Assembly: GCF_015240065.1 (NCBI RefSeq)
Contig: NZ_CP060506.1
Location: forward strand, 1,488,001-1,552,000
DNA length: 64,000 bases
Direction of reading: 5' to 3'
DNA from: Nanchangia anserum
GTDB lineage: Bacteria > Actinomycetota > Actinomycetes > Actinomycetales > Actinomycetaceae
Position 1 is the first letter of the stretch; each line of letters starts with the position of its first letter. Positions 4,461 to 16,321 of the stretch are shown in pieces. The translations under genes and the position numbers were made by a program. The notes beneath the pieces were generated by a model that worked only from the letters and a program-made list of their open reading frames with translations, did not search any database and was not told the origin of the DNA.

Positions 4461-5428
4461 CTACAGCCCGGAAATCGGCAGCACCGGGCGCGTGTGGGTC
4501 TCGAGCAATGCCCGCAGGCGCGCGAAAAACGCCGCAGAGTCGGCGCGCTCGATGACGCGCGCGTTCGCGGTGGCCTCGAATTTGTCCCACGCCATCGCGG
4601 AGTACCCGCGCGTGAGGGCCGACGTCGTCTCGACGTCGACGCGATAGGGGGCTTCGGCGAGGATGAGCTCGGGGTGGACGAGGCACTGCAGCGTCATCGA
4701 GTCCGGGTGCGTGGACCCGGGCACGCCCACCGATTCGTCGTAGGCGAGCGTGTGATCGCACAGGGCCTTGAAGAAGCGGGCGATCGGGGTGTCGATCGCG
4801 CACAGCTCCTCGTAGTCGAGGCGCGGCAGCAGGGCGTCGGTGAGGGTGACGGGATCCCACGTTAAGACGACGACGTCGGAGAATCCCGCATCGAAGACGA
4901 TCTGCGCGGCCTCGGGGTCGACGTAGAAGTTGAACTCGGCGGCGGCGGTGATGTTGCCACCCCATTGTTCGACCCGCCCATGATGTAGAGCGACTTCACC
5001 CGTTGGGGAAATGTGCGGTCGGCGATGCAGGCGGCCGCGATATTCGTCAGCGGGCCGATCGCGACGATGCTGAGCTCGCCCGGTTCCTCCGAGGTCATCC
5101 GCAGCAGCGCGTCGACAGCGCCCTCATTCGAGACCATGCCGTCGGGAACGTCCATGCTCAGCCCGCCAGAGCCGTCCCCGTGGACGTCTTCGGCACCCTC
5201 CCACGCCCGCATAAGCGGGCGCGAGCACCCCAGGTGGATCGGGCAGGCCCCGACCTTGTCGGCGACCGCGAGCGTCATCGCGGCGTTGTGGACCTGGCGG
5301 TCGAACCCGACGTTGCCGGCGACCATAGTGATGGCGCGGAGGTCGGCGGCGGGGTCGAGCAACCCGAAGAGGATCGCCACGCAGTCGTCCTGCGCGGAGT
5401 CCGTGTCGAGGATGAACGGGACAGCCAT
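4461..5428 (-). pseudogene. Inosine/uridine-preferring nucleoside hydrolase, frame-broken
   Basis: Hydrolyses the N-glycosidic bond of nucleosides for salvage. The N-terminal half reads well from the ATG at 5428 (ribosome site TAGGAGACTC): the calcium/ribose motif DTDSAQDD, then LSIVAIGPLTN. After MGG the frame is lost in a CCC run near 4971-4976. The next frame immediately continues VEQWGGNITAAAEFNFYVDPEAA and runs to a stop at 4461, so one missing G/C pair explains it. About 322 residues when corrected, normal for the family. Either a read error or a recent mutation; similar breaks elsewhere in the window favour the former. It follows serS by 33 bases on the same strand. Confidence 0.85.
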
Positions 5429-5461: not shown

Positions 5462-6730
5462 TCAGTCGCGGGTGAGCACCTCGCGACCGCCCAGGTAGGG
5501 GCGTAGTGCTTCGGGGACGTAGACCGAGCCGTCGGCCTGCTGATGGTTTTCCAGGAAGGCGACGATCCAGCGGGTGTTGACGACGGTGCCGTTCAGGGTC
5601 GCCACCGGCTGGGTGCCACCCTCGCCACGGTAGCGAATGCCCAGGCGGCGCGCCTGGAAGGTCGTGCAGTTCGACGTCGACGTCAGCTCGAGGTAGCGCT
5701 CCTGGGAGGGTAGCCACGCCTCGCAGTCGAATTTCTCGGCCGCGCTCGACCCCAGGTCACCGGCCGCCGTGTGGATGACGCGGTAGGGCAGCTCGAGCTT
5801 GGCCAGCATCTGCTCCTCCAGCGCGAGCAGGCGCTGATGCTCGTCTGCGGCGTCCTCGGGCAGGGTGTAGGCGAACATCTCGACCTTGTTGAACTGGTGG
5901 ACGCGGATGATGCCGCGCACGTCCTTGCCGTGCGAGCCGGCCTCGCGCCGGTAGCACGAGGACCACCCGGCGTAGCGGATCGGCCCGTTCGACAGGTCGA
6001 CGATCTCGTCGGTGTGGTAGCCGGCCAGGGCGACCTCGGACGTTCCCGTCAGGTAGAGGTCGTCGGCGGGCAGGTGGTAGATCTCGTCGGCGTGGGCCCC
6101 GAGGAAGCCCGTGCCGCCCATCGTTCGCGGGCTGACCATCGTCGGGGTAATCATCGGGGTAAAGCCGGCCTCCATGACGAGGTCGAGGCCGCACGTGAGC
6201 AGCGCGAGCTCCAGGCGCGCCCCGATCCCCTTGAGGAAGTAGAACCGCGATCCCGACACCTTGGCGCCGCGCTTGGTGTCGATGGCGTCGAGGCCCTCGC
6301 CGATCTCGACGTGGTCGCGCACGTCGATCCCCTCGGCTCCAAAGTCGCGTCGACGCCCGTGCTCGGCCAGCACGACGTAGTCGTCCTCGCCGCCGGCGGG
6401 AACGCCGGGGTTGACGATGTTGGGAATCGCGTAGGCGGCCTCGCGCGCCGCAACCTCGGCGGCCGATGCCGCGGCCTCGAGCTCCTTGACCTCACCGGCC
6501 ATCGCCTTCGCCTGGGCGAGGATCGCCGGGCGCTCCTCCTTCGAGGCGGCACCGATCTGCTTCGACAGCGCCTTCTGGTCGGCGCGGCGCGACTCGAACT
6601 TCCCCAGCGCCTCGCGCCAGGCCCGATCGGCCTCGAGGGCACGATCGACGTCGGCGGGGTCGGCACCGCGAGCACGCTGAGAGGCGCGCGCGGGCTCGGG
6701 GTTGTCACGCAGGCTTCGCAAATCGATCAT
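5462..6730 (-). CDS. serS: Seryl-tRNA synthetase
   Basis: Class II synthetase charging tRNA-Ser in the cytoplasm. The N-terminal coiled-coil arm (about residues 30-100, rich in Glu/Lys/Ala) is followed by the catalytic core: [11 protein letters not shown], motif 2 region [22 protein letters not shown], and the serine/ATP site [15 protein letters not shown]. The 422 residues are full length. The ATG is 6 bases behind a TAGGAT -10 hexamer, so the message appears leaderless; this also excludes a T-box leader. The broken nucleoside hydrolase follows on the same strand. Confidence 0.97.
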
Positions 6731-6736
6731 GGCGCC

Positions 6737-6796
6737 ATCCTATGCCGCCGCGCGCCCGCCCTCTCACCCCGCCCACGTCGGGCGCCTGGCTAAACT
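6737..6796. promoter_or_regulatory. Divergent leaderless promoters, serS and DAG-kinase gene
   Basis: Minus strand: TAGGAT (6742-6737) ends 6 bases before the serS ATG. Plus strand: TAAACT (6791-6796) ends 8 bases before the ATG at 6805. No ribosome-binding site can fit in either. No clear -35 boxes. Confidence 0.6.
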
Positions 6797-6804
6797 TGGG
6801 TCAC

Positions 6805-7902
6805 ATGAGTATGTCGCTGTGGGCCCTGGGCATCTCGCTGGTCGCCCTCGCCTGCGCCGCCTGCGCCCTCGTCATGGCGAACCTGGCCTTTCGCCGTTCT
6901 CGGCGTCGCCCCCACCTGACCCCAGCGGCCCTCGGAGGACTGCGCCCCACGTCCGAGGATTCCCCCGCGCGCAGTGGCGGCGTGTGGGTCATCGTCAACC
7001 CCACCAAGGTCTCGGATTGGCGCCAGCTGCGCGCGACCATCTGCGCGGCGGCGTTCGCCGCCGGCTGGGGCGATCCCCTCATCATCGAGACGACCGAGGA
7101 GGACCCGGGGATCGGCCAGGCGCGCGCGGCGCTCGCGGGCGATGCCGGCCTCGTGCTCGTCGCCGGTGGTGACGGCACGGTTCGCCTCGTGTGCGGGGTC
7201 CTCGCCGGCTCCTCGATCCCCGTCGGCATTCTGCCGCTGGGCACCGGCAACCTCCTCGCGCGCAACCTCGGCATTCCCATCGACGACCTGCCCCAGGCGT
7301 GTCAGATCGCCTTCACCGGCCACGAGTCGGCCCTCGACATCGGCTGGATGCGGCTGAACGGTCACGAGCAGCGCCACCCGTTCCTCGTCATCGCCGGCGC
7401 CGGCTTCGACGCCGACATGATGGCGGGCGCCAGCGCGGATTGGAAGTCGCGCATCGGCTGGGGCGCCTACGTCATGTCCGGGGTGCGGGCGCTGCGCAAC
7501 CCGGCGATGGACGTGACCCTGTGCTACGCCCACACGCCCACCCCGACTCGGCTGCGTGCGCGCACCCTGCTGTTCGCCTCGTGCGGGGAACTGACCGCCG
7601 GCCTCACCCTCGCCCCCGGTGCCGACCCGTCGGACGGGTGGATGGAGGTCATGGCCATTGACGTGCGCGGCGGCCTCGTCGGCTGGATCGAGTTGGGGGT
7701 CCACGTCATCGCTCGCGCCATCGGTGCGCGCAAGCGGCTCGCCCCGGTGACGGCGACCCTGACGACCGAACGCTCGACGCAGGCCCAGGCACGCATCGAA
7801 AGCGAGGCCCGCCGCGTCCAGGTCGACGGCGACGACCTCGGTTACGCGCACGACCTCGAGGTGAGCTTGCAGCGCCACGCCCTCATCGTGCGCTCGCTGT
7901 GA
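6805..7902 (+). CDS. Diacylglycerol/lipid kinase family protein
   Basis: Probably phosphorylates a lipid such as diacylglycerol at the inner membrane face. The 365-residue protein has an N-terminal hydrophobic helix (about residues 5-28) followed by RRSRRR, then the DAGK catalytic domain: VIVNPTK (63-69), the nucleotide loop GGDGT (121-125) and PLGTGNLLARNL (144-155). The C-terminal beta-domain ends with VQVDGDDLG. An in-frame ATG lies 63 bases further upstream, but it falls inside the serS promoter; the ATG at 6805 sits just behind TAAACT and was chosen. The exact lipid substrate cannot be read from the sequence. Confidence 0.88.
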   Translation: MSMSLWALGISLVALACAACALVMANLAFRRSRRRPHLTPAALGGLRPTSEDSPARSGGVWVIVNPTKVSDWRQLRATICAAAFAAGWGDPLIIETTEEDPGIGQARAALAGDAGLVLVAGGDGTVRLVCGVLAGSSIPVGILPLGTGNLLARNLGIPIDDLPQACQIAFTGHESALDIGWMRLNGHEQRHPFLVIAGAGFDADMMAGASADWKSRIGWGAYVMSGVRALRNPAMDVTLCYAHTPTPTRLRARTLLFASCGELTAGLTLAPGADPSDGWMEVMAIDVRGGLVGWIELGVHVIARAIGARKRLAPVTATLTTERSTQAQARIESEARRVQVDGDDLGYAHDLEVSLQRHALIVRSL

Positions 7903-7905
7903 GGG

Positions 7906-8835
7906 CTACCCCTGGGTGAACAGGGCGTCGACCCACGCCCGGGCGGCGCGGAAGTCCTCGTCGCTCGTGCCCGGCTCGATCGCGTTCGCCCGCCCGTCGG
8001 CGCGCGGGTAGGAGCCCAGGAAGCGCACGTCATCGCACGTGCGGTAGACGCCGACGAGGGCCGCCTGAACCCGCTCCTCGCACACGTGCCCGGCCAGGTC
8101 GATGGAGAAACCGTAGGCGCCGGGCTGGCCGGCGACGGGACGCGACTCGATGCGAGTGAGGTCGACGCCGCGAGTGCGGAACTGTTCGAGCAGCTGGTGG
8201 AGGGCGCCGGCGTGGTTGCGCGGCAGGCGGACCTGGATCGTCGTCTTGTCGGCGCCGGTGGGCTCGGGCAGGTGGCCGGGCAGGGACAGCATGACGAAGC
8301 GGGTGATGGCGCCGGGATTGTCGGCGACGTCGGCGCGCAGCGTGGTCAGGCCGTACAGGGACGTCGCGATGGCCGACGACAGGCACGCCTGGAAACCGTC
8401 GTAGCCCTCGGCGAGCAGGCGGGCAGCCTCGGCGGTGGAGGTCGTGGGCGTGTGCTGAGCACCCGGGAGCGTGTCAGTCATCCAGTTGCGGCATTGGGCC
8501 CACGCGTGGGAGTGGGTGCCGATGCGCTCGACGTCGTCCAGGGTGACGCCAGGGCGAGCGGCGAGGGTGAACGAGACGGGGACGACGATTTCGCGCACGA
8601 TTTGTAGGCGCTTGCCCCAGGCCAGCGAGTCGAGGGTCGCCGTGACCCCGCCCTCGACCGAGTTTTCGATGGGCACCACCGTGTAGCGGGTGCGGCCGCT
8701 GCGCGTCGCGTCCATCGCCGCGCGTTCGCCCGCACACGGGACGATCGTCGCCTCGGGTGGGGCGACCTGGCTGAGCGCCTGGTGACAGAATGTCCCAACC
8801 GGGCCGAGGAAGGCGTAGGACGGGGTGTCGGTCAT
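7906..8835 (-). CDS. pheA: Prephenate dehydratase
   Basis: Converts prephenate to phenylpyruvate in phenylalanine synthesis; monofunctional, without a chorismate mutase domain. The 309 residues start with YAFLGPVGTF, contain VVPIENSVEGGV (53-64) and the catalytic TRF (178-180), and end in an ACT domain with the phenylalanine-sensing ESRP (230-233). The start at 8835 has AAGGAAAA ahead of it; a longer in-frame extension upstream lacks family features. It converges with the lipid kinase gene (3 bases between stops) and diverges from the large membrane-protein gene. Confidence 0.96.
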   Translation of the reverse strand: MTDTPSYAFLGPVGTFCHQALSQVAPPEATIVPCAGERAAMDATRSGRTRYTVVPIENSVEGGVTATLDSLAWGKRLQIVREIVVPVSFTLAARPGVTLDDVERIGTHSHAWAQCRNWMTDTLPGAQHTPTTSTAEAARLLAEGYDGFQACLSSAIATSLYGLTTLRADVADNPGAITRFVMLSLPGHLPEPTGADKTTIQVRLPRNHAGALHQLLEQFRTRGVDLTRIESRPVAGQPGAYGFSIDLAGHVCEERVQAALVGVYRTCDDVRFLGSYPRADGRANAIEPGTSDEDFRAARAWVDALFTQG

Positions 8836-8871
8836 CGGTTTTCCTTTCGTCTTCGGCAACCGTAGTCGCCC

Positions 8872-8877
8872 TACACT
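8872..8877 (+). promoter_or_regulatory. -10 hexamer of leaderless promoter
   Basis: TACACT ends 7 bases before the ATG at 8885. The distance places the transcription start at or next to the A of the start codon. Confidence 0.6.
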
Positions 8878-8884
8878 GGTGCGC

Positions 8885-11800
8885 ATGGGTCGAGCCAGCA
8901 TACGGATGCGACACGCGTTCGTCGTCATCGCGGTTGCCGTCATCGCGCTGCTCATCGGGGACGCCGTGCGCATCGCCGGGATCGTGCACGAGGCACCGCG
9001 TGAGAGCGAGGCGCCGGTGGCGATGAGCCGCGCCCAGCGAGCGATCTATCCGACGGCTGACAACGAGATCACGCCGGGTGCTCGCTCGCCCCTCGTCGTC
9101 ATCGGGGTCAGCGGATTGACGAGCGCGGATCTGCGCGACATCTCGCGCTATCCGGCGCTCGCCGAGCGCGCGTCCACGGGCGCGATCGCCAACCAGGTCG
9201 TGCGCGGAGCCGACCAGGTGGCGTGCCCGGTCGACGGCTGGTTGAGTCTGCAAGCCTCGCAGCGCCTGTCGGATCGCGCGGGGCGTGCGGAGGGGACGTG
9301 CCCCAACGTGGCCGATGTTGCCGACCACGGCATGCCCGCCGACGGTCTGGGAGGTCCCGACGATGCCCACCTCGGGCTGTTGGGGCAGGCGTTGGAGGCG
9401 TTTGGGATCTCGACGCGCGCCATCGGCCCGGGCGCGCGCATCGCCCTGGGAACCCCGACGCACCCCGCTGCCGGCGAAGCCGCCGCGGCCTCCGATGGCG
9501 AGCTGGCCCGCCAGGTCGCCGAGGCCGCATCGTCAACGCGCGTGACCGTCGTCGACGCCGACGTCGACGTTCCCGACCTCCAGGTTGCCACCCCCGGTCA
9601 CTCCGCGACCGACACGTGGGAGGGTTTCGCCGCTCCCCCACCCACGGACACCCGCCGCGCGACGCGGCTGCTGACTCGGCTCAACACGATCGTCGCCGAG
9701 CTCGACGACAACACCCAGGTCATCATCACCTCGTTGGCCGATGGGACGTCGCTGTCGAGCCTGCAAGCCACCATTTTGTCGACCGACGCCATGACGAGCG
9801 GCTATGCGCGCTCGGGATCGACGCGGACAAACGGGCTGGTTCTCACCGCCGACATCACCCAGCTCATCCTCACCTCGGCAGGGCTGCCCGTGACGAGCGA
9901 GGGGCAGGGCATGGCGATCACCGGCGGGGGCGGCACCCGGCTCGCGCTCTCGAACGAGGACGCCGCCTCCGCGCTCGCTAGTTCCCAGCTCGAGGAGCGG
10001 ATCGATCGGCTGGCCGATGCCGCGCTGCACGCCCGTGTCACCTTGTCGATCCAGCCCCTCGTCATGGTCGTCTTGGCGGTGGTCGCCCTCGCCTGTCTGT
10101 TCCTGCTCATTCGCCTCGTCTTCGCCCATCGCCTGGGTAACCTGCCGAGGCGTCGCCGGCGCATCCTCACCGTCCTCGCGCTTATCGCCGCGTGCGCGCC
10201 GCCCTCGACGTTCCTCGCCAACCTCGTGCCGTGGTGGCGGCTGTCCTCGGGGGCGCCGGTGCCAGCGATGCTCGCCGTGCTCGCCGTCACGGCGCTGATC
10301 TCGCTCGTCATCGTCGCCGTCGCCGCCGGCGTCGCCCAGCTCGTCCGCGCGCTGGCGCCCGAGCACGACGACACCCGCTGGGTCGGCCTCATCGTCATCA
10401 CGCTCGCCCTCACCGGGTTGCTCGTGGGCGGGGCGCGGGCGTCGCGGCTGAGCCTCGATGCCGTCATGGGCTCCTCATCGCTGCTCGGGGCGCGCTTCTA
10501 CGGGATCGGCAACACCCAGTTCGCTCTCGTCGTCGTCCTCACCCTCACTGCTGCTGCCCTCATCGGCTCGCTCCTCGTGCGTCGCGGCTACCGCCTGGCG
10601 GGGCTGATCGTGGCGGCGGCGGGCGGCATGTGGGTCGTCTCGATCGACGGGGCGGCCTCGCTGGGGGCCGACGTCGGCGGTCCTCTCGCGCTGACGCCCG
10701 GCGTCCTCGTCCTGACGATCCTCCTCATTCGCGGCTACCTGCGCCGCATCGACATCGTGTGGATTGCCCTGCTCACCCTCGGATCCTCACCCACTTCGGG
10801 CTGCGCGATTTTGCCCGCCCCGCGCAGGAGCGCTCGCACGCGGGGAGCTTCGTCGCCGCGCTCGCTGAGGGCCACGGCGGCGCGGCCTTCCATCACAAGA
10901 TCGCGGCGATGGTGGGGACGTTCATCGGCTCTGGCCTCGGCATCGTCTCTCTCATTCTCGCCGTCGTCGTCGCCCTCGCCATCGCGTGGGGATTGCGCCG
11001 CCTCACCCGCATGCGTCAGCGTCCCGACGTGCGTGCGGTCCTCACCGGTCTGCGCCGCGTCCCCGGCCTCACGCCCCTGGCCGCGGCCGGGCTGCTGTCG
11101 ACGATCCTGGCGGCCCTCGTCAATGACTCGGGACTCATCATCGTGGGTGCCGCCGCGCTCATCGCCCTGCCCCTCTTCTGTGCCGGGCTGCTCACGGCGT
11201 CGCTGCCCCTGCCCGCGGCACCGAGGCTCCCGAAGTGGCGCGGTGCCGCCGTGGCGGTTCTCTCCCTCATCGGCATCGGCGCCGTCGTCGCGACGCTGCT
11301 CGGCCCCTCCCCGACGCCGAGTTCGAGCGGCGACCGCGAGGAACTCAGCGCTCACCGCACGGTCGTCCTCTACACCCATTCCCTATCGTGGCAGCGCCTG
11401 CGCTACGCCGCCGACACCGGGCTGGGTGCGCAGATCGATCGCTCGTGGATGTTCAACGTCATTCCCCTGCGCACATCCTCGGGATCGTGTCCCCTCGACG
11501 CGTTCCTCGCTACCAACGCGGCGGCTCCCGTGTCCTCGCGCTCACTGGGAGGCCGCGACCTGTGCATGGATATCCCGTTACCGCGCGAGGGCGAGCCCGT
11601 GGCCGGCTGGGAGTATTTCCGGGCCGCCGAGGCCGCTGGATCGCACACGTCGCGCCTGGGGGCGCTGGGCGACGCCGTGGCGAAGCACCATGTCGATGCT
11701 CACGCGATCGGGGGTAACGCCGCCGCGGTGCTTGCCCGCTCCAACGGGTCGGTGGCCGCCACGGTGCAGGAGCGCCCGACCTCGGATGCCGATATGGCCG

Positions 11801-13704
11801 ACGCGGTTGCCGCCTCGGTCTCGCAGCACCGCCTCACCGTCGTCGACGCCGAGGCGGCCTCGGTCAACGACGATCCCACCCGACAGATTCAGGCGGCCGC
11901 GCGCATCCGCCACACCGAGCTAGCCGCCGCCGAGGCGCGCGGGGAGGATCCCGCCACCATCGTCGACCAGCCGATTACCGAAGTCAGCGCCGCGCTCAAC
12001 CCGCTCCGCGGTGCCAGCGGGACCCCGATTGGCGACCTCGTGCGTTCCCACCCGGGGATCCTGCCGCACCGAAGCGTGGACCTCTCGGCCACCGGCGGGC
12101 GAGCCTGGCGCATCCAGGCCGCGCAGGCGGCCCAACAGGAACGCCGGCTCGCCACGATCTTGGCTGGGCTTCCCCGCGATGTCACCGTCATCGTCGTCTC
12201 GACGACGACGGCGTCGCCCTCACGCGAGATGGGGGCCGGGATGATTATCACGCCGAAGGGATCGGGCGGGCTCGGCCACTCGGGTTCCGTGCGTCAGGCC
12301 GGGATGGTGCAGCTGGCCGACGTCGGAGTCAGCATCGCCGCATCCGTCGGACTCGATTCGAGCGATCTCGTCGAGCCGGCCGGCTCCGTCATCTCCGGTG
12401 TTGCCCTGGGCTCTCAACCGCAGGCGCGCTGGACGAAGGTTCTCAACGATTCGACGCGCGCGAGCGCGATCTCGACGGCGCGCAATGCCTTCCACACGCC
12501 GCTGCGTTCGGCGGCGACGCTCATCTTCCTGCTCGCGGCTATCGCGACGATTCGTCCCGTCTATCGTCGCCTGGTACCGACGATCCCGGGCGGACGTGGC
12601 AGCGAGCGCGTCCTAGGTCGGCTGGTGTGCCTGACGCTTGCCGCCCAACCGGTGGCGGCCTTCCTCGTGTCGTTGACGCCGTGGTGGCGAGCAGCCTCGC
12701 CCTCAGCGGTGCTCGGCTGGGGAACGTGGGGTCTCGGGGCTATCCTCGCCACTCTCGCCCTCCTCGCCTGGCGCTCGCCGCTGGGACCGATGATCGCCAT
12801 CAGCGGGGCAACGATGGCGCTGCTTGCCCTCGACATTGCGACGGGGTCGCAGGCCCTCATCGACGCGCCGCTCGGCTTCAATTCGCTGGCTGGCGCGCGC
12901 TTCTACGGCGCCGGCAACGAGGCGTACACCCTCATGGCGACGGGGTTCTTCTTCTCCGTCGGCCTCGGTGCCGCGTGGCTCATCGATCGGGGGCACCGCC
13001 TCGGCGGGCTCGCCGTCTTCGTCGGTGCCGGAATCGTCCTCGTCATTATCGACGGCGCGCCGAACCTCGGTGCCGACTTCGGCGGCCCGCTGTCGCTGCT
13101 GCCGGGGATCGCCGTCGGCGCCATACTGTTGGCGCGGGCGCGCCTGTCGTGGCGTAAACTGGTCCTCGCACTCGGGGGCACCGCCCTCGTCGGCGTCGGA
13201 CTGGCCGTCGCCGACTGGCTGCGTCCCCCCGCCTCGCGCACCCACCTCGGCCGATTCATCGAGTCGAGCCTGCACGGCGACCTCGTGCCGATCATCACCC
13301 GCAAACTCGGGGCGAACCTGGCGGCGCTGACGTGGTCGGGACACCGGTGGGTCGTCCTCGCCGCGCTCGTCCTCGCCGCGGGCACCCTCGCCTTCGGGCT
13401 GCGCGCCACGCCGGCGCCCGCGCCGACGCCGGGCCGCCGCCTGGGTGAGCGCCTTCGCGCCGCCCGCATTCGCGCCTGGGGATGGTTGGCGCCCTCAGCA
13501 CCGGACGCCTCGGCTCGCACACGCCTGGACGGGATCACCGCGATGACGATCGCGTGGGTCGTCACCGAGGTCTTCGGGTTCGCCCTCAACGATTCGGGGA
13601 TCCTGCTGCCGGGCTTGGGCGCGATCCTCGCCGTGCCGCTGCTCCTCGACGTCGTCATCGCCTCGCGCGCCCACGCGCGCGACGAGAAGCGGGCGGCGGA
13701 GTAG
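8885..13704 (+). CDS. Giant duplicated membrane protein, AlkP-like ectodomains plus multi-TM modules (one frame break)
   Basis: I do not recognise a named function. With one frame break repaired near 10771-10790 (first part reads to ...IALLTLG, the next frame resumes ILTHFGLRDFARP), the product is about 1,606 residues built of two homologous halves. Each half has an N-terminal TM helix, a ~350-residue exported domain with alkaline-phosphatase-superfamily flavour (PLVVIGVSGL / TVVLYTHSLS at the start; SGSTRTNGLVL / SGSVRQAGMVQ at the end), then about eight TM helices. Shared TM motifs are GARFYGIGN (from 10488) and GARFYGAGN (from 12892), LGADVGGPL and LGADFGGPL, NDSGLIIVG and NDSGILLPG. I see no complete set of phosphatase metal ligands. 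It converges, with adjoining stops, on a GT2 glycosyltransferase gene, and pgm follows, hinting at envelope polysaccharide or phospholipid work. Start: ATG 8885 just behind TACACT; an upstream ATG at 8825 overlaps pheA. Confidence 0.8.
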
Positions 13705-14532
13705 CTAGCGGCGGCCCCGCGCCGCCTCACCCAGCGCGCAATAGGGCTCGTAGTCACGCTGGCGAGCGGCAGCCTGGGCGAAACGCGCCCGCGGCAGGCG
13801 CACCCGCGCCAGTGCCAGCGACGTGACGGCGCGACGCACGTCGATCCACTGGCGCAACCGGTGCATCTCGCCCGCGAAGTCGCGCGTGCTCACCCGATGC
13901 CCCAGTTCGCACGGCACCTCGATGAGGGTCATCCCCGCCACGAGCATGCGAATCGTCATCGCCGTCTCGACGCCCCACCCGGGCGCGAACGGCTGGGAGG
14001 CGGCGAAGGCCTCGCGGGTCATGCAGCGTTGCCCGGACAGGGGCGCCACGGGCCGCCACCCCGCGGCCTTTTCGATGGCGCTGCGCGCCAGCCCCAAGAC
14101 GAAGCCGTGGCCGCCGGCACCTTTGGCCGGGGGGAGGACAGCGATCGCGCAGTCGGCGCGCCCGCAGGCGACCGGCTCGACCAGCGGGGCTGCCTCGGCC
14201 GCGCTGTCGCCCAAATCGGCATCGAGGTAGAGGAGGAGGCGCGGCTCCCCCTCGGCTTGGTCGTGCATGCCGGCGACGTTCGCGCCGGTCTGCATGGCCG
14301 AGGCCTTGCCCCGGTTGATTGTGTGGCGCACGGTGATCGCCCCGGCCTCGCGGGCACGCAGTTTCGTCTCGTCGGTGGACCCGTCATCGACGACGATGAT
14401 GAGGTCAACACCGGGAATCGCCTTCGATGCGCGCACGGTGGCCGCGATGCGGTCTTCTTCGTTCATCGCCGGGATGATGACCGCGACCGCCGGGGTGCGC
14501 TGCTCCGGATCCGAGGGAGTGCTGTGGTCCAC
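13705..14532 (-). CDS. GT2-family glycosyltransferase
   Basis: Probably transfers a sugar from an activated donor; acceptor unknown. The 275-residue protein has the GT-A fold signature: VAVIIPAMNEEDRI at the N-terminus, VVDDGSTDET, the metal-binding LDADLGD, and a C-terminal acceptor region PLSGQRCMTREAF...PGWGVETAMTIRML. The overall pattern resembles dolichyl-phosphate mannosyltransferase and glucosyl-3-phosphoglycerate synthase relatives, but it has no membrane helices. Start GTG at 14532 lies 6 bases behind TAGTGT, so it looks leaderless. Its stop codon directly adjoins that of the duplicated membrane protein. Confidence 0.88.
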   Translation of the reverse strand: MDHSTPSDPEQRTPAVAVIIPAMNEEDRIAATVRASKAIPGVDLIIVVDDGSTDETKLRAREAGAITVRHTINRGKASAMQTGANVAGMHDQAEGEPRLLLYLDADLGDSAAEAAPLVEPVACGRADCAIAVLPPAKGAGGHGFVLGLARSAIEKAAGWRPVAPLSGQRCMTREAFAASQPFAPGWGVETAMTIRMLVAGMTLIEVPCELGHRVSTRDFAGEMHRLRQWIDVRRAVTSLALARVRLPRARFAQAAARQRDYEPYCALGEAARGRR

Positions 14533-14628: not shown

Positions 14629-14635
14629 GGGCGCC

Positions 14636-16321
14636 ATGCATGAAAGAGCTGGTACCCCTGCCCTGCCCGAAGATCTCATCGATGTCGATGCGGTGCTGTC
14701 GGCGTATTACGACCTCCAACCCGATCCCGATATTCCCGCCCAGCGGGTGTCCTTTGGCACCTCCGGGCACCGCGGATCGTCTCTCGATACGGCGTTTAAC
14801 GAGGCCCATATCGTCGCGATCACGCAGGCGATCTGTGACTATCGCGCCCGCATGGGCTACGACGGCCCGCTGTTCCTCGGTCGTGACCTCTCACGTGCTG
14901 TCCGAGCCGGCGCACCGCTCGGCGCTGGAGGTGCTCGTCGCCAACGGCGTCGACGTGCGAGTGGACTCGCGCGACTCCTTCGTTCCCACCCCGGCGATCT
15001 CGCACGCCATCCTCACGGCCAACGGTGCCGGCACGCCCGAGGGCGTGCGCCTGGAGGGTCCGGGCCTGGCCGACGGCATCGTCATCACCCCCTCGCACAA
15101 TCCCCCGCGCGACGGCGGCTTCAAATACAACCCGCCCCACGGCGGGCCGGCCGACACCGACGCGACCGGGTGGATCGCCGAGCGAGCCAACCAGATCCTG
15201 CACGAGGGGTGGGACACGGTCAGCCGGGCCTTTGGCGAGGCCCTCGACCCCGACACGAGCGAGACATCACCCGATATGACTACCTGACGAACTACGTCGA
15301 CGATCTCGAGCAGATCATCGACATGGCCGCGATTCGCCGCGCCGGCGTGCGCATCGGCGCCGACCCGCTGGGCGGGGCCGCGGTTGACTACTGGCAGGCG
15401 ATCGCCGAGCGCTACGGGCTCGATCTCGACGTCGTCAACCCCGAGGTCGACCCGACGTTCCGCTTCATGACGCTGGACTGGGACGGGAAGATCCGCATGG
15501 ACTGTTCCTCGCCACAGGCCATGGCCTCGCTGCTGGCCGTCATGGAGAAGAACGAGGACGGCGAGACCCGCTACGACATCGCCACCGGCAACGACACGGA
15601 TTCGGACCGCCACGGCATCGTCACCGCCGACGGGCTGATGAACCCCAACCACTATCTCGCGGTCGCCATCGAGTACCTCTACACCCACCGCGACGGGTGG
15701 GCCGACGACTGCGCGATCGGCAAGACCCTCGTGTCGTCCTCGCTCATCGACAAGGTCGCCGAGTCGCTGGGGCGTCGCCTCATCGAGGTTCCCGTCGGCT
15801 TTAAGTACTTCGTCCCCGGTCTCGTTGACGGCTCGGTGGGATTCGGTGGCGAGGAAAGCGCCGGCGCGTCGTTCCTGCGCTTCGACGGCACCGTGTGGAC
15901 GACCGACAAGGACGGCATCATCATGTGCCTGCTGGCCTCCGAGATCCTCGCGGTCACGGGGAAGACGCCGTCGCAGCTGCACCGCGAGCAGGTCGAGCGC
16001 TTCGGCGCGTCGGCCTACACGCGCGTCGAGGCCCCGGCCGACGCCGAGCAGAAGGCGACGCTGAAGAAGCTCTCGCCCGACGACGTCACGGCCGACGAGC
16101 TGGCCGGCGACCCGATCACGGCGAAGCTCGTGCGCGCCCCGGGTAACGACGCCGAGATCGGCGGCCTCAAGGTGACGACGCCCACCGCGTGGTTCGCCGC
16201 GCGCCCCTCGGGTACCGAGGACATTTACAAGATCTACGCCGAGTCCTTCGCGGGCGAGGACCACCTCGCGCGCGTCGTTGACGAGGCAAAGGTCGTCGTC
16301 TCGCAGGCGCTGTCGCGCTAA
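14636..16321 (+). CDS. pgm: Alpha-D-glucose phosphate-specific phosphoglucomutase (two frame breaks)
   Basis: Interconverts glucose-1-phosphate and glucose-6-phosphate, linking glycolysis to UDP-glucose and polysaccharide synthesis. The sequence reads [10 protein letters not shown], then LGRD; at about 14886-14892 it shifts frame and continues [16 protein letters not shown], with the catalytic-site region [24 protein letters not shown]. At about 15255-15270 it shifts back and continues [14 protein letters not shown]. Metal motif DTDSDRHGI, sugar-binding GFGGEESAG and C-terminal [17 protein letters not shown] complete the family pattern. About 561 residues corrected, the normal size. Two compensating shifts in a central metabolic gene point to read errors. 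Start ATG 14636, leaderless. Confidence 0.9.

Follow-up and report, generated by a model that had tools for sequence, protein, structure and literature searches.

The stretch analysed here (the window) is 64,000 nucleotides of Nanchangia anserum DNA (contig NZ_CP060506.1, positions 1,488,001 to 1,552,000, forward strand); positions below are those of the window unless another source is named. The gene at 8885 to 13704 (plus strand) encodes a membrane protein of about 1,605 residues composed of two homologous halves, and we call this protein and its family MEM. Genomes are designated by number, with the window's genome as G000 and a congener as G001. The MEM gene and its neighbours are arranged as follows.

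8885 to 10780, plus strand: N-terminal part of MEM half 1 (type A unit), with the first transmembrane (TM) helix, a degenerate AlkP-like ectodomain and the first helices of the membrane domain (frame of 8825; profile match 8 to 596 of 750, E 1e-110; start set by the congener)
10781 to 11223, plus strand: C-terminal part of MEM half 1 after a 1-base frameshift, with the NDSG motif (frame of 10141; profile match 601 to 729, E 1e-20; congener junction)
11224 to 13704, plus strand: MEM half 2 (type B unit), complete, with TM1, a degenerate AlkP-like ectodomain and 11 TM helices (profile E 2e-154; AlphaFold2 pLDDT 87, pTM 0.88; 25 of 25 conserved membrane-domain residues)
13705 to 14532, minus strand: soluble GT2 glycosyltransferase, convergent, its stop adjoining that of MEM (PF00535, E 7.5e-16; conserved neighbour)
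14630 to 16321, plus strand: pgm (phosphoglucomutase), frameshifted, start approximate (PF02878 to PF02880 and PF00408 across two frames)
7906 to 8838, minus strand: pheA (prephenate dehydratase), conserved upstream neighbour (61 of 80 loci)
6742 to 7902, plus strand: diacylglycerol-kinase-like gene, conserved neighbour by synteny
5462 to 6730, minus strand: serS, conserved neighbour by synteny and species marker for the loss count

The start codon, ATG at 8885, was backed by the congener, whose protein begins MGRA(S/N)IRMR, and the stop at 13702 to 13704 abuts the GT2 stop. Both ends agree with the span given by a first-pass annotation made from the letters of the window. The same annotation had proposed an internal duplication, and this was borne out. 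The two halves aligned by blastp with 31% identity over about 360 residues (E 1.4e-22 to 2.9e-28), with a second, weaker match in the ectodomain. A profile of the single unit covered both congener halves end to end (E 3e-117 and 4e-160) and matched the window's frames in half 1 (E 1e-110) and in half 2 (E 2e-154).

The coding sequence is interrupted by a 1-base frameshift near 10,780. The frame of 8825 holds up to about this point, where it ends in '...VWIALLTL', and the frame of 10141 then resumes with RILTHFGLRDFARP (RILTHFGLRD). The congener sequence across the junction is WVGLLTTLLLIHVGLRD / LGWVGLLTTLLLIHVGLRDYARP; therefore, one base is missing in the window. In G001, the MEM frame is uninterrupted over 1,839 amino acids. 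The window's pgm is likewise broken by a frameshift, as are the MurJ and PNPT-like genes at 774 to 776 kb of the same contig, 0.72 Mb away. Because these genes are broken too, an assembly indel rather than a real pseudogene is the likely cause of the break in MEM. Programmed frameshifting was dropped because there was no conserved slippery site, the congener was intact, and several other genes were broken. Of these genes, pgm is hit twice, and at 8579 to 11160 of locus L192 MurJ is spread over at least three frames and the end of the PNPT-like gene is shifted; what is apparently a nucleoside hydrolase (4862 to 5428 of the window) is also affected.

Each unit has one N-terminal TM helix, an ectodomain and about 11 TM helices. 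The first-pass annotation had this order right and its count of about eight helices too low. AlphaFold2, run on 51 aligned units, modelled half 2 with a pLDDT of 87.2 and a pTM of 0.88, and the membrane domain folded alone reached 89.9 and 0.90. The model passed a positive-inside check, with a K+R fraction of 0.22 in the inner loops versus 0.08 in the outer loops. Against the PDB, the membrane domain had no match better than E 0.16 and no TM-score above 0.28 in the hits listed, and this structure search gave no match to the GT-C, O-antigen ligase or MurJ-type flippase folds. This domain could well be of a new class. We found 18 polar residues conserved at 80% or more in this domain, and 16 of them lie on the outer side in the model topology. 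The outer set comprises PWW, D537, R559-Y561-N565, D610, D618, D664-R667, H674, R693-K694 and N789-D790-S791 (residue numbers refer to half 2), and the conserved polar residues on the inner side are R444 and R727. The motifs GARFYG, LGADxGG and NDSG, present where the first-pass annotation had placed them, fall within the outer set.

The ectodomain belongs to the AlkP superfamily by sequence and fold, as that annotation had supposed. A broad MEM profile matched the Xac nucleotide pyrophosphatase/phosphodiesterase (NPP) with E 5.3e-7, and the other weak profile hits were mostly phosphoglycerate mutases, phosphopentomutases and sulfatases. In a Foldseek search of the PDB, the leading hits were almost all AlkP superfamily members, with probabilities mostly of 0.9 to 1 and E-values of only 1e-3 to 0.1; a viral structure library returned only AlkP-type sulfatases and phosphatases, with weak scores. 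The predicted loss of metal ligands was also seen. An active AlkP enzyme has metal ligands at the first-strand Asp, the Asp-His of SDHG and the last His, and a Thr or Ser nucleophile, and this set was not found in the profile alignments of MEM. At the first-strand 'IDG' Asp, MEM has L/V-G-x, and 'SLTDPG' stands in place of 'SDHG'. T, S or A occupies the nucleophile position, varying even between the two MEM halves. In the D329 column, several units have T, P, Q, N or H, and near-invariance is limited to D208 and D366. We dropped an active phosphatase as a reading because the aligned metal-ligand positions are replaced.

Several envelope enzymes are built along related lines. The AlkP-type transferases LtaS, EptA, OpgB and GacH have an AlkP-fold outer domain, membrane helices and intact metal sites. 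The eukaryotic glycosylphosphatidylinositol-ethanolamine-phosphate transferases of the PIGN type have a TM helix, an AlkP domain and many TM helices, and their metal site is intact. MEM has the PIGN-type domain order, but its metal site is not kept. The bacterial transferases share with MEM the AlkP outer domain and the TM helices; neither they nor any PIGN-type structure was among the Foldseek hits listed. With the NPP and iPGM branches of the superfamily (Xac NPP, 7MW8 and 2GSN; ENPP7, 5TCD), MEM has in common the ectodomain fold and the terminal motifs TPxL and DxAPTxL. However, it differs from them in its unconserved metal ligands and nucleophile and in its fusion to an 11-TM domain.

Single units of about 700 to 900 amino acids, commonly about 750, are the norm across Actinomycetota. 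In a named genome collection, 494 stretches encode MEM relatives; we examined the best 80 as loci, and all were single units, from Kineosporia, Kineococcus, Intrasporangiaceae, Cellulomonas, Georgenia and kin. Fused doubles occurred in G000, G001, G012, G028, G034 and G043; separate copies, in tandem or close together, were seen in G005, G006, G017, G025, G032 and G041. A quick tree of units, with long branches and several weakly supported forks, grouped the C-terminal halves of the Actinomycetaceae fusions with stand-alone 'type B' genes located beyond serS in G005, G017 and G032, and placed the G043 fusion as independent. Second halves keep 23 to 25 of 25 conserved membrane-domain residues (all 25 in the window), and first halves keep 23 in the window, 15 in G001 and 7 in G034. 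The doubled build reported by the first-pass annotation is thus real, but it does not define the family. The duplication is secondary, and the doubling is a fusion of two paralogs that are encoded apart in other genera, with the first half often decaying. Shedding of many conserved membrane-domain residues by the first half was seen at L021 6488 to 14142 (G001) and L033 5271 to 11060 (G034); in the former, a third, near-complete unit lies directly downstream of the fused gene. Pfam and NCBIfam scans of MEM proteins gave no match above cut-off, in line with the annotator's statement that the build had no named function known to it. The available text of the literature on SteAB gene neighbours and on Actinomyces LCP (LcpA) protein glycosylation does not mention this gene set.

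MEM occurs in two kinds of neighbourhood. In Actinomycetales and related groups, the order serS-dagK-pheA-MEM-GT2 (convergent)-pgm is highly conserved, and in the best 80 named loci the neighbours include GT2 in 63, pheA in 61 and pgm in 26. The nearest solved relatives of GT2 are GpgS (PDB E 2e-12) and then dolichol-P-mannose synthase (5e-4). GT2 was found in 43 of 43 MEM-bearing relatives, and it is missing from most MEM clusters of other classes. Because it is also present in nine MEM-lacking relatives, GT2 is a neighbour and possible feeder of MEM, not an obligate partner. At L203 (G001:C20), GT2, pgm and hrpA lie together while MEM is on a different contig, which shows that MEM can be separated from GT2. 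Genes for GT87 and MptB-like proteins flank MEM and GT2 in Knoellia (L074 8634 to 10034 and 12114 to 13667) and Kineosporia (L061 8450 to 9700 and 12096 to 13961), and these flanks suggest that polyprenyl-linked sugars are used there.

In other classes of Actinomycetota, MEM is found in the cluster steA-steB-(MurJ)-(GT4)-MEM-PNPT-like-pyrG-ald, as seen in most of 20 loci drawn mainly from those classes. The window's genome has steA-steB-PNPT-like-MurJ-GT4 at 771.6 to 777.3 kb without MEM, which lies at 1,497 kb. Here and in other Actinomycetales, MEM is at the pheA/GT2 locus, and the PNPT-like gene and a second MurJ gene (MurJ2) are still between steB and pyrG. MurJ2 of G001 matched PF03023 with 138 bits (cut-off 27.4) and is additional to a full-length MurJ elsewhere. 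The first-pass annotation had linked MEM to envelope glycans by way of GT2 and pgm. The link to envelope glycans stands, and so does GT2 as a conserved neighbour; pgm is kept far less often, and the two were dropped as defining partners, since GT2 persists where MEM is missing and the PNPT-like gene and MurJ2 track MEM instead. These genes at the steA-steB locus could not be seen by the earlier reader.

Among 59 relatives, MEM is present in 43, comprising 42 found by search and G031, in which it was recognised on reading the pheA-GT2 locus. The PNPT-like gene is present in 42. Both genes occur in 42 genomes, neither in 16 and MEM only in 1, so 58 of the 59 agree. G031 was rejected as a PNPT-only genome because its MEM had been missed by the single-sequence search. 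The sole MEM-only relative, G047, was rejected as truly MEM-only because its contig ends at steB, where the PNPT-like gene should follow. In a phylum sample of 296 genomes, with 100-bit cut-offs applied to the matches listed, both genes occurred in 93, MEM only in 4, PNPT-like only in 10 and neither in 189 (282 of 296 agree). Five large-genome relatives in family f21 (G159, G178, G276, G329 and G349), which have no full-length MEM, carry a shorter PNPT-like protein (104 to 142 bits; about 253 to 263 amino acids in four of them) that is possibly a separate paralog.

The steAB loci showed the same co-occurrence. PNPT-like and MurJ genes were present there in all MEM-bearing genomes read except G047, and in none of seven MEM-lacking genomes. 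In five of these seven, steB leads directly into pyrG; in G053 GT4 lies between them, and in G010 no pyrG was seen. All four MEM-lacking genomes checked retain one full-length MurJ elsewhere. At the other locus, pheA adjoins GT2 without MEM in the four MEM-lacking genomes read (G011, G013, G014 and G044). On a SerS tree, five MEM-lacking genomes require 5 changes, at least 3 of them forced by well-supported branches. In these genomes MEM is not linked to the PNPT-like gene and MurJ2, yet it was lost together with them, which points to a whole undescribed envelope glycan pathway.

SteA itself differs between the two groups of genomes. Bit scores against the congener's SteA were 451 to 535 in nine MEM-bearing genomes and 196 to 312 in seven MEM-lacking genomes, with no overlap, and pyrG scores did not differ. 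This contrast can be seen at L192 (G000:C1:765000-784000) 6622 to 12264 and at L205 to L219. The cell-separation genes steA and steB encode a complex known from Mycobacteriales as septal. According to PMC12977500, SteAB positions and activates the hydrolase RipA there, GDP or UDP stabilises CgSteA, and SteA has a conserved pocket for which carbohydrate binding is predicted. In Bacillota, the same paper places SteAB beside spo0A. The steA and steB genes of MEM-bearing genomes are of the same families (PF12555 and PF11382) as those of the Corynebacterium and Mycobacterium complex (PMC12977500, PMC7775120). However, their steB-pyrG interval carries the PNPT-like gene, MurJ2, GT4 and often MEM, genes that the available parts of the two papers do not mention.

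MEM very probably belongs to a pathway, linked to SteAB, that assembles an envelope glycan on a lipid carrier. We rate it as the undescribed outer component of a known kind of process, lipid-linked envelope glycan assembly. Its own role at the outer face may well be transfer, polymerisation or ligation, to which we give slightly less than an even chance. The combined proposal, that MEM performs the extracytoplasmic step in an as yet undescribed pathway by which Actinomycetota make a lipid-linked envelope glycan, is in our view evenly balanced. The data show the homology, the fold class, the lost ligands, the outward position of conserved residues, the synteny, the co-occurrence and the repeated co-loss; from these we infer the order of steps, the substrate, the catalysis and the coupling to the division site as follows. 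Inside the cell, the PNPT-like enzyme would put a sugar phosphate on a polyprenyl carrier, and GT4, possibly with the neighbouring GT2, would extend the chain or supply lipid-linked sugar. The dedicated MurJ2 would then turn the lipid-linked glycan outward. MEM would take the glycan in the conserved outward pocket of its membrane domain and transfer, polymerise or ligate it, and the metal-free AlkP-like domain may hold a phosphate-bearing substrate or acceptor. SteA and SteB would probably place or regulate this step. In the window's MEM, the second of the fused paralogs keeps the full pocket. Such a pathway resembles Wzx/Wzy- and teichoic-acid-type pathways in its PNPT start, GT4 extension, MurJ/Wzx-family flippase and outer-face membrane protein. 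However, no similarity of MEM to Wzy, WaaL, LCP or GT-C proteins was detected, and MEM is linked to steA-steB.

Several observations weigh against this proposal. One weak point is the PNPT-like protein, apparently a divergent PF00953 relative, whose assignment rests on one above-threshold Pfam match (31.3 bits at L183, cut-off 27; L176 falls below it with 22.3 bits) and on the motifs DD, NxxN..D and GDxGxN..G, which are invariant in the alignment. PF00953 had no match in L190, L192 or L205; the two Actinomycetaceae copies had none. A PNPT-like profile found no MraY or WecA structure in the PDB. No PNPT was detected in G314 and a few other genomes that have MEM. The Fisher p-values for co-occurrence (1.5e-13 in the 59 relatives and 1e-59 in the 296 genomes) are both inflated by shared ancestry. 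In MEM itself, no known catalytic motif of a glycosyltransferase, ligase or polymerase was recognised, and its membrane domain matched no solved enzyme and hence has no catalytic precedent. The enzyme activity is a prediction from sequences and models.

Other roles for MEM must be weighed against the same evidence. It could be a non-enzymatic translocation partner of MurJ2 that moves or releases the lipid-linked glycan; the AlkP-like domain would then serve as a chaperone or gate on the outside. Such a partner would be gained and lost with MurJ2, as MEM is, and the 12-TM build and the degenerate AlkP domain would suit it. Against it, the clustering of invariant D, R, H, K and N residues is confined to the outer face, a pattern that suits an active site there more than a path for transport, and no transporter fold was matched. 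We find this role rather unlikely. We consider it quite improbable that MEM is a sensor or regulator whose pseudo-AlkP domain detects outer lipid-linked glycan or fragments of the wall and passes a signal via SteA and SteB to wall hydrolases at division. The persistent linkage to steA-steB, the SteA conservation that follows MEM presence, and the RipA activation by SteAB in Mycobacteriales described in PMC12977500 all favour such signalling, but MEM has no cytoplasmic output domain and its conserved outward membrane pocket would be left unexplained. Moreover, SteAB works in Corynebacterium and Mycobacterium, for which PMC12977500 describes no MEM.

MEM might also have GT2 and pgm as its main partners; it could, for instance, use a polyprenyl-phosphate hexose that GT2 produces. 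The adjacency of GT2 in most named loci and its presence in every MEM-bearing relative would agree with this, as would its distant relationship to dolichol-P-mannose synthase and the GT87 and MptB-like genes that join the locus in Knoellia and Kineosporia. Yet GT2 persists without MEM, most other-class clusters do without it, and it is nearer to GpgS than to polyprenyl-P synthases. A main partnership with GT2 and pgm is therefore very doubtful, and GT2 may still feed the pathway. GacH, EptA and LtaS-type enzymes decorate wall glycans, and an AlkP fold outside the membrane would let MEM be an active phosphoryl or phosphoalcohol transferase of that type. We see almost no chance of this, given the replaced metal-ligand positions and a nucleophile position that differs between the two halves.

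The proposal that MEM performs an outer-face step can be extended, tentatively, to a possible but somewhat unlikely outcome. MEM may be the founder of a new class of membrane enzymes that polymerise or ligate glycan at the outer face; its membrane fold would be one not seen before, and its metal-free AlkP domain would clamp the substrate. Together with the PNPT-like protein and the second MurJ, it would make a septal or wall glycan, as yet undescribed, throughout Actinomycetota. That glycan pathway would be the original partner of SteA and SteB, and the nucleotide- and sugar-binding pocket of SteA/SteB would report on it. The family extends across much of the phylum, with no Pfam or NCBIfam model, no solved relative of its membrane half, and a function undescribed in the literature searched. 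It also bears on the function and the ligands of SteA, a nucleotide-binding protein of the actinobacterial septum.

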